A DNA stretch of 64,000 nt from Dietzia sp. ANT_WB102 (GTDB lineage Bacteria > Actinomycetota > Actinomycetes > Mycobacteriales > Mycobacteriaceae). This document shows, piece by piece, positions 7,445 through 57,977 of the stretch. The notes under the pieces were generated by a model. The model was not told the origin of the DNA. It did no database searches and was given only the letters and a program-made list of their open reading frames with translations. The stretch covers positions 124,001 to 188,000 of the forward strand of contig NZ_VOBA01000002.1 in NCBI RefSeq assembly GCF_008369165.1. Direction: 5' to 3'. Position 1 is the first letter of the stretch. Each line of letters begins with the position of its first letter. The translations under genes were made by a program, and so were the position numbers.

Positions 7445-8125
7445 TCAGGCACGCAATTCAGGTCGCCAGAGCCGATGAGCGTTCAGTCCGGCCCGATCGA
7501 GCAGCCGTCGCAGAAGCGGCAGACTGAGGCCGATCACACTCGACGGGTCTCCCTCGATCCGGTCAATGAACCAGCCCCCGAGGGACTCGATTGTGAACGC
7601 GCCCGCGCACTCGAGCGGCTCCCCGGTGCGCAGGTACACGTCCAAGTCGGTGTCGGAGGGGGCGCCGAAGTGCACGGTGGTGTCCGACGTGTCGGTTTCA
7701 GAGAAGGTGACGACGACCGGGTCGTCGCCGGTGAGGTCTGCGACTATCAGCGAGTGGCCGGTGAGCAGGACCCCGTGCCGCCCGCGCATCTTCCGCCATC
7801 GCTCCATCGCGCGCTCATAGGTGTGCGGCTTACCCTCGAGCTGGCCATCGACGAGCAACATCGAGTCGCACCCGACCACGACCAGCGTGTCCGCGCCTGC
7901 CGCCCTCGCCTCGGCAGCGAGGGTCTCACCCTCCCGGTGCAGGACGTCCTCCGCCTTGGCGCGGGCCAACTCCTCGACCACCCGCACGTGCGGGGTACCG
8001 GCCGGCAGGGCGGCCTGGAGTGCGTCTTCGTCCACCTGTGGGTGGCGGATGATCGGGTCCACCCCTGCCTGCTCGAGGATCCGCAGGCGGGACGGGGACG
8101 CGGAGGCGAGGACTAACGCGATCAT
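7445..8125 (-). CDS. maf: Maf-family nucleoside triphosphate pyrophosphatase
   Basis: Maf/ham1-type pyrophosphatase of 226 residues, expected to hydrolyse non-canonical or specific nucleoside triphosphates (dTTP/UTP class) to monophosphates. The N-terminal substrate loop SASPSRLRILEQAG is diagnostic and the internal GCDSMLLVDG segment carries the catalytic Asp. The start is ATG 8125 with TACGCT (minus strand, 8132-8137) six bases upstream, again a leaderless layout. It sits in the accA3-accD5 neighbourhood as in Mycobacterium (Rv3282), without an obvious functional link to the carboxylase. Confidence 0.88.
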   Translation of the reverse strand: MIALVLASASPSRLRILEQAGVDPIIRHPQVDEDALQAALPAGTPHVRVVEELARAKAEDVLHREGETLAAEARAAGADTLVVVGCDSMLLVDGQLEGKPHTYERAMERWRKMRGRHGVLLTGHSLIVADLTGDDPVVVTFSETDTSDTTVHFGAPSDTDLDVYLRTGEPLECAGAFTIESLGGWFIDRIEGDPSSVIGLSLPLLRRLLDRAGLNAHRLWRPELRA

Positions 8126-8146
8126 GGGGTCAGCGTAGCCACCTGC

Positions 8147-8575
8147 TCAGGACCGCGGCAGCAGCATCGTGATGGTCAATGTGGTGGGCTCGAGCGCCCG
8201 GACCCGGTGGCGGAGCTTGGCGGTGAGGTGGAGGACCTCACCGGTATGCAACTCGAGTGTGCGGTCGGGTAACCCGAATTCCACGCTGCCCTTCAGCAAC
8301 TGGACGAGGATGGGGTGGAACGCGGCGTGGTCGGGCATCTCCTGGCCCTCGTCGAACTCGAATACGACGATCTTGGTGGTCTCGTCCTCGTGAACGACTG
8401 CCGCCCCGGGTCGCTTCGCGGATGGCTCGGCCCGCCCGATGATGTCGGTATGGTGCGTCGCGGTTCCCTCGTCGGTGCCGGCTCGCCGGCCGCTGGCGCG
8501 GTCCTCGGTTGCCGGGTCGCGGGTGGGCCCGCCTGTGGTCGCGCCCCGCCCGGGGGGCGTGGTGTCCTCAGTCAT
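8147..8575 (-). CDS. Cupin-domain protein of unknown role
   Basis: A 142-residue protein with a disordered, Thr/Gly/Arg-rich N-terminal third and a single small cupin barrel (about residues 60-140). The pattern HAAFHPILVQLLKGSVEF followed by GEVLHLTAKLRHRVRAL is that of RmlC-type cupins that may bind a metal or a small ligand; only some of the usual metal-binding histidines are present. The start ATG 8575 is supported by GAGGAGG six bases upstream; a longer frame extends into the hairpin at 8667-8730 and is not credible. It lies between maf and accE. Substrate unknown. Confidence 0.65.
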   Translation of the reverse strand: MTEDTTPPGRGATTGGPTRDPATEDRASGRRAGTDEGTATHHTDIIGRAEPSAKRPGAAVVHEDETTKIVVFEFDEGQEMPDHAAFHPILVQLLKGSVEFGLPDRTLELHTGEVLHLTAKLRHRVRALEPTTLTITMLLPRS

Positions 8576-8666
8576 GGGAACCTCCTCGGTGAGCTTGCCG
8601 TCCGGCCCGACGACACGCCCCCAGCCTACTGAGGTGGGGTCGACGCACCCCGATCCCCGACACAGA

Positions 8667-8730
8667 CGCCCCGGCTCCTGCATTCGGAGCGTGTGAATCG
8701 GTACACGCTGCGAATGCAGGAGCCGGGGCG
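8667..8730. repeat. Long near-perfect inverted repeat (28-base arms)
   Basis: Arms 8667-8694 and 8703-8730 are reverse complements except for one position, with an 8-base loop. The outer 20 bases of each arm (beginning CGCCCCGGCTCC) pair perfectly. It lies just downstream of accE, so it may terminate accD5-accE transcription, but it is longer than any other terminator here and could be a dispersed palindromic element. Confidence 0.9.
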
Positions 8731-8796
8731 GCTGGGTGTGAGCGCGCGGGGGTGCCGACCTCGGGGTTTCAGTCCCAGGCAATCACGCCTCGACGC

Positions 8797-9051
8797 TCAG
8801 TAGTGGCGGCGGTTGAGGAACGAACTCGGGTTGTACCCGAACGGCGGACGGAGGCGATCTTCGTAGGATCCCCAGTCGTCCTTGATGCCGGTGTCGTGCT
8901 CGCTCGCGTGGACGGCGTTCCCCTGTGCGGTCGCGAAGACTGCGGACAGGATGCCCACCTCGGTCGGCGTGGGGTTTCCACTCACGACTGAAAAGAGCGG
9001 CTTCTCCGCCTGTCCGGCCCGGTCCTGCTGCTGCTTCTGGTCGCCGGTCAC
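8797..9051 (-). CDS. accE: Acyl-CoA carboxylase epsilon subunit
   Basis: Small 84-residue protein matching the epsilon subunit that stabilises AccA3-AccD5 type carboxylases in Mycobacteriales and Streptomyces. The conserved core [19 protein letters not shown] is at about residues 20-38, and the C-terminal tail ends in a basic/aromatic [17 protein letters not shown]. Its start overlaps the accD5 stop by four bases (ATGA), implying translational coupling and matched stoichiometry. The role in binding the beta-subunit hexamer is known for the family; that it partners the neighbouring AccD5 is inferred from the overlap. Confidence 0.85.
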
Positions 9052-10697
9052 AGCGGGATGTTCCCGTGCTTCTTGGCCGGCACCTCGACGACCTTGCGGT
9101 CCAGGAGTCGGAGTGCCTGCGACACCTGCAGTCGGGTGTGCGAGGGCGGAATCACCGCGTCGATGTACCCGCGCTCGGCGGCGACGTAGGGGTTGACGAG
9201 GGTGTCCTCATACTCGGCCTGCAACTTGAGGCGCAAGGCGTCGACGTCCTCGCCGTTGGCGGCGGCTTCCTTGAGCTGCGGCCGGTAGACGAACCCAACC
9301 GCGCCGGAGGCACCCATCACGGCGATCTCTGCGGTCGGCCACGCCAGGTTGATATCGGCGCCCATGTGCTTGGAACCCATGACGTCGTACGCTCCGCCGT
9401 AGGCCTTGCGAGTGATGACCGTCACCTTTCCGACGGTGGCCTCGCCATAGGCGTAGAGCAGCTTGGCGCCGCGGCGGATGATCCCGTCGAACTCCTGGCC
9501 GGTGCCGGGCAGGAAGCCCGGGACGTCGACCAGCGTGAGGATGGGGATGTTGAACGCATCGCAGGTGCGGACGAAGCGGGCGGCCTTCTCCGATGCCTTG
9601 ATGTCCAGGCACCCGGCGAACTGGGTGGGCTGGTTGGCCACCACGCCCACGCTGCGGCCCTCGATGCGGCCGTAGCCGACGATCACATTCATCGCGTACT
9701 GGCCCTGGACCTCAAGGAACTCACCGTCGTCGACGAGGTGGGAGATGACCTCGTGCATGTCGTACGGGGCGTTGGAGGAGTCCGGGATGATCGTGTCGAG
9801 CTCGTGGTCCTCGAGTGTGAGGTTGTCCTCGATCGCGCCCTCGGCGACGGGGAACGGGTAGCGCGGGGCCTCGGCACGGTTGTTGCTGGGGAGGTAGGAC
9901 AGCAGGTCCTTGACGAAGTCCAGGGCGTCCTGCTCGTCACTGGCGGTGTAGTGGGACACGCCCGACTTGGTCATGTGCGTGGTGGCGCCGCCCAGTTCCT
10001 CTTGGGTGACCTCCTCGCCTGTGACCGTCTTGATGACGTCCGGTCCGGTGACGAACATCTGCGAGGTCTTGTCGACCATCACGGTGAAGTCGGTGAGCGC
10101 GGGGGAGTAGACGTGGCCTCCGGCTGATGGGCCCATGATCAGCGAGACCTGCGGGATGACGCCGGAGGAGAGCACATTGCGGTGGAAGATCTCGCCGTAC
10201 AGGCCGAGCGAGACGACGCCCTCCTGAATGCGGGCGCCGGCGCCATGGTTGATGCCGATCATCGGACGACCGGTCTTGAGGGCGAGGTCCATGACCTTGA
10301 CGATCTTCTCGCCGTAGACCTCACCCAACGATCCACCGAAGACGGTGGCATCCTGCGAGAAGACGCAGACGCTGCGGCCGTCGATGGTGCCGTAGCCGGT
10401 GATGACGCCGTCTCCCAGCGGGCGGCGCTCGGCGAGTCCGAAGGTGGTGGCTCGGTGGCGGGCCAGGGCGTCGATCTCCACGAACGAGCCGGGGTCGAGG
10501 AGGTTCTCGATCCGCTCGCGGGCCGTCATCATGCCCTTTTCGTGGGTCTTGTCCACCGCGGCCTGCCCCATCGGGGCCCGGGCTTCGTCAAGGCGCCGTC
10601 GCAGCTCGGACAGCTTCCCGGCGGTTGTGTGGATGTCGGGGGTCGCAGCGTCCGTCTGGACGTCGGCGCTCACGTCCGGTTCTGAGGCAGTCGTCAT
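9048..10697 (-). CDS. accD5: Acyl-CoA (propionyl-CoA) carboxylase beta subunit
   Basis: Carboxyltransferase beta chain, 549 residues, the usual length for AccD5/PccB. It moves the carboxyl group from biotin-AccA3 to propionyl- or acetyl-CoA. Two crotonase-like halves are visible, with oxyanion-hole glycines in the [14 protein letters not shown] stretch and in [13 protein letters not shown] start it at ATG 10697 (MTTASEPD); a longer frame passes through the birA promoter region. It is transcribed with accE downstream (four-base overlap). The substrate preference, propionyl-CoA, is by analogy with AccD5 and not proven by sequence alone. Confidence 0.93.
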
Positions 10698-10791
10698 GTT
10701 GCAAGACTCTAACCAGTGACCCGGCTCCGTGGCGACGTGACCCGGCGTACATCCCCCGGCGGCGACCCCGACAGATGTCGGGCCGGGCACA

Positions 10792-48944: not shown

Positions 48945-48977
48945 AAAGGGCGGGCACCGGTCAGGTGCCCGCCCTTT
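48945..48977. terminator. Bidirectional terminator between rshA and the bL37 gene
   Basis: Perfect 14-base stem AAAGGGCGGGCACC with its complement around a five-base loop. It separates convergent genes and ends in a short T-run on each strand. Confidence 0.93.
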
Positions 48978-57083: not shown

Positions 57084-57977
57084 GTGAACGACGTGAGTGT
57101 CCCCGAACACGTCCGCGGCGCGTTCGGCGTGGCGGACGGCCCGGCCGTGGCTGTGGTCGCCGGCTCGGGGACCGGTTGGCTGGTGTCCACGTCCGGGGCC
57201 GCCATCGTGCTCCGGCCCGTCGCGGACACGGCGATGGCCAATTGGTCGGCCCGAATCCGCGAGGAACTTGATGTGACGGGGCTCCGCGTGGCCTTGCCGG
57301 TGCGCTCCACCGACGGCCGTCACGTCGTCAGTGGCTGGCGTGCCGACCGGGTGGTGTCCGGCCGCCCCGAGGCGCGGGCCGACGAGACCATCGCATGGTC
57401 GGCCAGGATCAACGCGGCGCTTGCCGACGTCGAGCGCCCGCGGCTGGCCGCGCGCCCGGCGAGGAGACCGTGGGCCGAGACCGACCTTTTCGCGTTGGCC
57501 GAGGCGGCCGCCTGGGACGGCGATCCGGAGCATGACTTGGCGCCGGGGATGGAGGACCGAGGTACGCCCTTCGCGACCCACCGTGCGGCTGCCTTGCTCG
57601 GTGCGACGGGCCTCATCCGGCACCGCCGGCCGCTCGACATGACGCCCGTGGCCGGAGTGGTGCACGGGGACTTGGCCCGGGGTCTGCTCTTCGATTCGTC
57701 CGCCGAGCCCGCGTTAACGGATGTTGTCCCTTATAACCGGCCGGCCTCGTGGTCGGCTGCGGTCGTCGCGGTCGACCATTTGTCGTGGGGCACGGTCGAC
57801 TCGGGTGTCCTCAGGCGGTGGCGCCATCTCGAGCAGTGGCCCCAGATGGTGCTGCGCGCTGCTGTGTTCCGCCTGTCGGTGCACGCGTTGCATCCCGGTT
57901 CGCGGCCGCACGCGATGGACGGCTTGCAATCCATGGCCCGCGAGGTCGGAGAGTTCGTCGGGGACCCGGCCGCATGA
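57084..57977 (+). CDS. TIGR02569-family protein
   Basis: A 297-residue protein of the TIGR02569 family (Rv3205c), restricted to Actinobacteria. Conserved parts include the N-terminal VSVPEHVRGAFGV, WSARINAALADV, and the central ATHRAAALLGATG-like segment; the fold has kinase-like features (HGDLARGLLFD resembles a phosphotransferase catalytic loop). GTG 57084 stands seven bases after TAGCGT; ATG 57066 is an alternative. It overlaps the MFS gene by four bases. Function unknown. Confidence 0.8.
   Translation: MNDVSVPEHVRGAFGVADGPAVAVVAGSGTGWLVSTSGAAIVLRPVADTAMANWSARIREELDVTGLRVALPVRSTDGRHVVSGWRADRVVSGRPEARADETIAWSARINAALADVERPRLAARPARRPWAETDLFALAEAAAWDGDPEHDLAPGMEDRGTPFATHRAAALLGATGLIRHRRPLDMTPVAGVVHGDLARGLLFDSSAEPALTDVVPYNRPASWSAAVVAVDHLSWGTVDSGVLRRWRHLEQWPQMVLRAAVFRLSVHALHPGSRPHAMDGLQSMAREVGEFVGDPAA

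Follow-up and report, generated by a model that had tools for sequence, protein, structure and literature searches.

What is the 64-nucleotide hairpin that lies downstream of accE in Dietzia sp. ANT_WB102? The original prediction, made on the 64,000-nucleotide stretch of DNA analyzed here (the window), offered three answers, namely an unusually strong terminator, a stabilizing 3' structure for the accD5-accE mRNA, or a copy of a dispersed palindromic repeat, and looked to the number of copies in the genome to tell a repeat from a local terminator. Comparison with the rest of the genus gives a less simple answer: this hairpin, of which the genome yields one full copy, appears to be an orthologous remnant of a genus-wide palindromic repeat family, and this is the new point of the present work. 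The locus contains the following features:

7445..8125, minus strand: gene of a Maf-family protein (protein-family match)
8147..8575, minus strand: small cupin-like open reading frame downstream of the hairpin (Cupin_2, E 1.2e-4, below Pfam's cut-off)
8623..8628, minus strand: TAGGCT, a promoter -10-like hexamer, 38 nt beyond the hairpin (motif match)
8662..8735, minus strand: whole element, each arm having one base more than the models (match to the 72-position models R2 and R3 from relatives)
8667..8730, minus strand (that of accE): core hairpin with 28-bp arms, an 8-nt loop, and one mismatch (arm pairing, folding, hairpin scan)
8797..9051, minus strand: accE, acyl-CoA carboxylase epsilon subunit (PF13822, 3.6e-12)
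9051-10700, minus strand, same direction as accE: carboxyl transferase domain gene, accD (domain match)

The two arms of the inverted repeat, 28 nt each, occupy positions 8667-8694 and 8703-8730 and enclose an 8-nt loop (8695-8702). They pair at 27 of 28 positions, the sole mismatch being 8687/8710, exactly as predicted, and can be extended to 35 nt (8660-8694 and 8703-8737) with a few more mismatches, at 91% complementarity. A simple arm scan of the whole window places this hairpin at the top with a score of 24 versus 15 for the runner-up. The stems of the other terminators of the window had been put at 10-15 bases; they are indeed shorter than 28, but the arms measured in the four others listed (13-19 nt) are slightly longer than stated. 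RNA folding of positions 8640-8760 yields -84.2 kcal/mol versus a mean of -52.4 for shuffled sequences (z = -8.9, with none of 200 shuffles equal), and the hairpin is no chance palindrome. Its stability on the accE strand is about -57 kcal/mol by folding, and the copies at the accE sites of the genus span -42 to -62 kcal/mol, compared with -28 to -43 for the four other strong hairpins of the window. An identity with a known Rfam family was rejected: the sole match with E of 1 or better in 8000-9300 is Ms1 sRNA (RF02566), whose 18.5 bits against a gathering score of 162 mark it as chance.

The gene names accD5-accE stand at the level of the family, with PF13822 in accE and a carboxyl transferase domain in 9051-10700, the putative accD5. 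The accD, accE, cupin-like, and maf frames share one common direction, and the hairpin should therefore be transcribed with accE. It begins 66 nt after the accE stop codon and sits between this codon and TAGGCT, a putative promoter element by its likeness to the -10 consensus; TAGGCT, TAGGGT, or TACGCT is present in 16 of the 22 readable accE 3' regions of Dietzia. The start of the cupin-like frame was chosen by reading, as the ATG at 8575 after AGGAGG, and the open frame itself continues to a TTG at 8782, across the hairpin. A canonical intrinsic terminator combines a stable stem with an immediate U-tract. The accE hairpin is followed by no U-tract (downstream bases TCTGTGTCGGGGATC), and the T profile of 13 accE copies is not tract-like. 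The U-tract is also absent from three of the four other strong hairpins in the window, and the hairpin at 48945-48977 has a short T run that lies partly within the arm (TTTTCTGT, minus side).

Searches of the ANT_WB102 genome by blastn, structure models, and an exact pattern of invariant positions found one full-length copy, that at the accE site. With 91 bases as the query, blastn returned, besides the locus itself, only matches of 14-27 bases at E 0.07 or worse, and a genome-wide profile search with models R1 and R2 gave no locus besides the accE hairpin. The exact pattern had no match in this genome, not even at the accE copy, which measures 68 nt in that frame rather than 66, with one extra base per arm. 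The lone match with one mismatch, at C1:1062006, was rejected as a second copy: it forms no palindrome and pairs at 12 of 27 positions. With three mismatches, 25 matches in the genome versus 22 in a reversed control are at chance level. One full copy here means one found, since the profile search scored 150 of about 9,000 first-look candidates and missed a 40-nt hairpin of contig C1, and any copy whose arms are each one base longer could slip past the pattern as well as the default filters. This perfect 40-nt hairpin with a TTCG loop (L006:1501-1540, near 1,268,830 of C1) is, among the loci of this genome examined, the closest to a further copy, having the outer stem of the accE hairpin, GACGCCCCGG, without its inner half. 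With filters off it scores 34.7 bits with R1 and 26.2 with R2, and R2 loses it at default filters; model scores of such size alone are therefore no proof of membership. We take it for an ordinary terminator, and it may be a shortened relative of the accE hairpin.

In other Dietzia genomes the same element is dispersed. It consists of one inverted repeat, nearly perfect, whose length hardly varies: the core measures 66 nt, and the ACA...TGT ends bring it to about 72 nt. Model R1, for which 11 hairpins from the accE sites of relatives were used and the window copy was left out, finds the window copy at 61.8 bits together with dispersed copies in other Dietzia genomes, and R2 gives the window copy 55.5 bits. 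Model R3, built from 54 dispersed copies only, recognizes it at 52.8 bits with filters off; the default filters lose it, perhaps due to its one extra base per arm, and under the same default filters R3 recovers all 12 of the other long accE hairpins (34.5-72.1 bits). Strong hairpins elsewhere in the window are unmatched by R1 and R2. The second-best model match in the window, at 57339-57406 (23.1 bits with R1, 16.4 with R2), is probably an unrelated GC-rich hairpin.

When no mismatch is allowed, the exact pattern of invariant positions occurs 195 times across 17 of 23 Dietzia genomes and is absent from 378 further genomes of the Mycobacteriaceae, with one control match among the matches listed for the 401 genomes. 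If one mismatch is tolerated, the relatives give 258 matches, spread over 17 of 22 Dietzia genomes with 0 to 47 per species, versus a single control match across 23 genomes. Of these 22 relatives, 12 carry at least five exact matches. In the 93 distinct exact matches of the retrieved sequences, the number of paired positions out of 27 ranges from 17 to 26 (median 22). A search of 84,980 genomes with the pattern of one subfamily returned 47 stretches, all 47 of them Dietzia. On these grounds, membership of the accE hairpin in a Dietzia family of interspersed palindromes is well supported. The proposal of a dispersed palindromic repeat was thus right by ancestry; the copy-number test divides, as the one full copy found in the hairpin's own genome counts against a repeat, while the dispersed copies in 17 of 22 other Dietzia genomes count for it.

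Several observations concern the reach of the family and the reliability of its counts. Weak R3 matches occur in five non-Dietzia genomes of the Mycobacteriaceae, from two other genera (including L186/G030 and L187/G059), at E 1.3e-5 to 1.5e-3. A dispersed copy used as a blastn query found no match among phages, and the ATGGCGTCT-subfamily pattern none among viral contigs; among plasmids the blastn query matched two Dietzia lutea records. NZ_CP015451.1 and NZ_CP015452.1, deposited as D. lutea plasmids, have 11 and 10 palindrome-like places, respectively. In the chromosome of G009 (D. lutea by its plasmid records), 6.3-kb units form a tandem array; they are 99.8% identical, and each contains one palindrome (L109, G009:C1:360000-378000). 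The unit matches NZ_CP015451.1 at 99.9%, where its genes (DUF6474, CopC, SDR, and others) repeat, and the array may be an amplification or a misassembly; it carries 13 of the listed copies and thereby inflates the family count. Three copies (L090, L094, and L102, in G005:C176, G008:C172, and G008:C20) lie about 50-90 bp from a contig end. Long palindromes may thus interrupt assembly, and counts from draft genomes may be underestimates.

For a closer comparison, 76 copies were fetched and aligned (13 from accE sites and 63 dispersed), of which 71 are exactly 66 nt. The dispersed copies come from the better-scoring part of the R1 list rather than at random, and include some near-duplicates and three from one tandem array. 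Alignment A4 retains 63 of the 76 and omits eight duplicates or near-duplicates and five cores of other lengths (L019, L020, L029, L030, L080), so that its gapless form is partly chosen; alignment A5 omits nine further rows (eight accE-site rows and L072). Across 63 copies, two-sided changes are found in 25 of 32 pairs, and 270 cells show a double change; shuffled alignments give 137 (0 of 500), and sliding the partner gives 40-72, all counts being uncorrected for relatedness. Covariation on the 11 accE rows alone is weak, with 83.2% of cells paired versus 82.1% in shuffles and 11 double changes versus 6.5 (9 of 500). The invariant positions are symmetric in both arms. Many cores (L082, L083, L089, L119, L125) are flanked by single-arm-like modules at a spacing of 20 nt (GGAGCGAGACGCCA, GGAGCGGCTGC); in 334 kb, the module 13-mers occur 47 times, 44 of these no more than 250 bp from an exact core and three in core-free loci.

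The accE gene is present in all 23 Dietzia genomes examined, and a long hairpin of the same kind follows it in 13 of the 22 readable 3' regions, ANT_WB102 included (one further locus, L041, has no readable 3' end). Eight of the nine regions without the long element fold another hairpin and one (L040) folds none. For every one of the 13 hairpins at accE, the closest sequence is another accE hairpin and not any of the 63 sampled dispersed copies, a set that includes copies from the same genome for 11 of the 13. Distances between hairpins correlate with those between genes (r = 0.55, 1 of 5000 permutations), and the window copy is the most diverged accE hairpin, at 0.29 to its nearest relative. 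The accE cores of G002, G011, G012, and G016 are among the exact-pattern matches listed, and that of G004 is among the one-mismatch matches listed. These comparisons lend good support to the view that the accE copy is an ortholog, inherited vertically, and no recent arrival. As a separate observation, the hairpin on the 3' side of accE in two relatives (L037 and L038) is short: its outer stem (ACAGCCGCCCCC...GGGGGCGGCTGT) is that of the long element, and the inner part is missing, as after an internal deletion; the L037 hairpin scores 26.7 bits with R3.

With genes called by a simple codon-based caller, 58 dispersed copies could be classified: 41 have convergent neighbors, 10 co-directional ones, and 7 divergent ones; four more are at contig edges, and one of the 63 overlaps a called reading frame. 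In the named loci, 21 of 35 copies lie in convergent gaps, compared with 21 of 168 copy-free gaps, and none in divergent ones. The two sets of 58 and 35 overlap, and the 35 core-bearing gaps derive from 44 exact cores, the rest of which were not placed between two called genes. At the locus of a Dyp-type peroxidase gene, the palindrome is found in at least 11 of 20 readable genomes; ANT_WB102 has an ordinary 31-nt hairpin there, G006 a different long one, and six genomes no strong hairpin (L225 has no readable 3' end, and two genomes were unmatched). In G009, the palindrome at this locus lies beyond an ordinary terminator-like hairpin and is hence not the first there. The element is thus often in terminator places, without always being the sole hairpin.

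Taking together the structure, family membership, orthology, covariation, and position established here, we consider it moderately probable that the accE hairpin is the only full-length copy found in ANT_WB102 of a Dietzia-specific palindrome family, retained as the 3' boundary of accD-accE. An old palindromic element would have been kept at the end of this transcript, its sequence changing while its pairing was largely preserved, and in about half of the other Dietzia genomes the family would have spread to many intergenic places, mainly between convergent genes, the original spread presumably occurring by some form of transposition. Once transcribed, the accE copy would form a highly stable stem-loop that stops RNA polymerase or makes it dissociate without the help of a U-tract, blocks 3' exonucleases, or both. 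In this way accE transcription would be kept from entering the promoter-like motif that lies 38 nt beyond the hairpin, in front of the cupin-like and maf genes. Judging from its position and structure, the hairpin probably acts in termination or stabilization. The corresponding part of the original prediction therefore fares unevenly: the conserved place and the structure agree with an unusually strong terminator or 3' stabilizer, but the U-tract is absent.

Mycobacterial terminators without U-tracts, close after stop codons, are described in the part of a review considered here (PMC12288462), whose reference list also includes a paper with a title stating that the mycobacterial polymerase requires a U-tract. 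The 'I-shaped' terminators of that account resemble the accE hairpin in being stable stems after a stop codon, devoid of a U-tract, in a high-GC actinobacterium. They are, however, defined there by function and shape, whereas the Dietzia element shares homologous sequence and near-constant length across loci. Three further points weigh against reading the accE hairpin as a boundary or as a terminator only: the long element is absent from 9 of 22 accE 3' regions; its start, 66 nt after the stop codon, is beyond the 50 bp given for the U-less terminators in the same part of the review; and its near-constant length exceeds the needs of a terminator.

Several alternative readings have to be weighed against a retained boundary. 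Transcripts may instead end downstream, by Rho-dependent termination, and be trimmed back to a hairpin that protects the accD-accE mRNA. This overlaps with our preferred explanation and, taken by itself, seems to us somewhat unlikely. The very stable stem without a U-tract fits it, as does the statement, in the part of the review considered here, that Rho-dependent termination is dominant in mycobacteria (PMC12288462), and the convergent placement of the dispersed copies fits a terminator and a stabilizer alike; the promoter-like motif 38 nt downstream, however, would leave little room for a Rho zone.

Alternatively, the palindrome could be a selfish, miniature REPIN- or MITE-like element devoid of function at accE and once mobilized by some transposase, its arms being kept alike by transposition and template-switch repair of quasi-palindromes rather than by selection on the hairpin. 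The wide variation in matches per species, the almost constant length, the modules that travel with the core, and the ability of copies to sit beyond an ordinary hairpin are all as expected of such an element. So is the base pairing of the accE copies, with 10 G·U pairs and 13 A·C mismatches, small numbers from the accE set only, as the strand of the dispersed copies was set by model score; that G·U is not commoner than A·C counts against purely RNA-level selection. We nevertheless regard this reading as doubtful, because a neutral insertion would be expected to be lost, whereas the accE copy has been kept in place in 13 of 22 species with a sequence lineage of its own. Moreover, no Y1 transposase was found in 23 Dietzia genomes, and neither a target duplication nor a clean empty site was established.

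It is improbable, in our judgment, that the palindrome is instead a DNA-level site, read as duplex or cruciform by a protein (a recombinase, nucleoid, or boundary factor) and unrelated to transcription. The symmetric invariant positions, the nearly fixed length, and the lack of a wobble preference would suit such a site, but conservation has no helical periodicity (permutation p = 0.31), the element prefers gene 3' ends, and no candidate protein was identified. Finally, that the hairpin is an ordinary local terminator, with a family likeness arising merely because GC-rich palindromes resemble each other, is very improbable: the single long copy in ANT_WB102, the other hairpins at the same place in relatives without it, and the outer stem and scores of the ordinary-looking 40-nt hairpin are in its favor, but the latter lacks the inner half, the window copy scores 52.8-61.8 bits over its whole length with the three models while the next window matches reach 23.1 and 16.4, the exact pattern gives hardly any control matches, and the other strong hairpins of the window are unmatched.

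The element can also be compared with known repeats. REPs, according to the part of Di Nocera et al. 2013 (PMC3733652) drawn on here, are the best known interspersed bacterial palindromes, tied to transposases and described mostly from proteobacteria; they measure 20-40 bp, and in the CGTC type the stems are 8-9 bp long and one end carries an unpaired tag. The GTAG- and CGTC-tagged REPs resemble the Dietzia element in being interspersed, extragenic, and palindromic, and in lying mainly between convergent and unidirectional genes, near gene 3' ends; extragenic placement, mostly at gene 3' ends, is likewise found in the Dietzia family (one of 63 dispersed copies overlaps a reading frame). The Dietzia element differs from the REPs of that account in having a single stem, about 28-32 bp long, whose ends are mostly paired and carry no such tag. 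By inspection, columns 2-5 are paired in 50-60 of 63 copies, the flanks contain no constant GTAG or CGTC, and CGTC is present inside the arms of one Dietzia subfamily only. A RAYT (Y1_Tnp, PF01797) transposase was found in none of 23 Dietzia genomes (15 at least 90% complete), the same search being positive in 5 of 14 control genomes, and an identity with REPs by transposase was rejected on this ground. Similarly, REPINs, as presented in the part of Bertels and Rainey 2011 (PMC3116915) used here, share with the Dietzia element the inverted arms in one long hairpin, the arm-like modules nearby, and the extragenic dispersal, but have RAYT transposases, of which none of the Y1/RAYT type was found in the 23 genomes. 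Neither Dietzia nor Rhodococcus, Mycobacterium, or Actinobacteria occurs in the main text of PMC3733652, and the passage considered from a 2025 REP survey (PMC12306157) shows three Actinomycetota species, none of them Dietzia. Among the papers listed by literature searches on Dietzia palindromes, repeats, MITEs, and REP elements, none describes the family.

Tentatively, and as a conjecture, Dietzia may harbor an undescribed class of miniature palindromic elements that disperse with no REP-type (Y1) transposase. Such elements would hold to a nearly fixed geometry of 66-72 nt while their arms change in concert, and would have been taken on time and again as transcript boundaries; the accE copy would then be a domesticated one that has outlived the family in ANT_WB102. 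The accE case is also a warning that a repeat family can be overlooked when copies are counted in one genome alone. Being genus-limited, found in a high-GC actinobacterium, and without a Y1 transposase in the genomes searched, the family offers a fresh case for how repeats spread and turn into transcript boundaries. The accE site, with 13 orthologous copies, nine sites that lack the long element, and one genome in which just one full copy was found, makes function testable at one locus.
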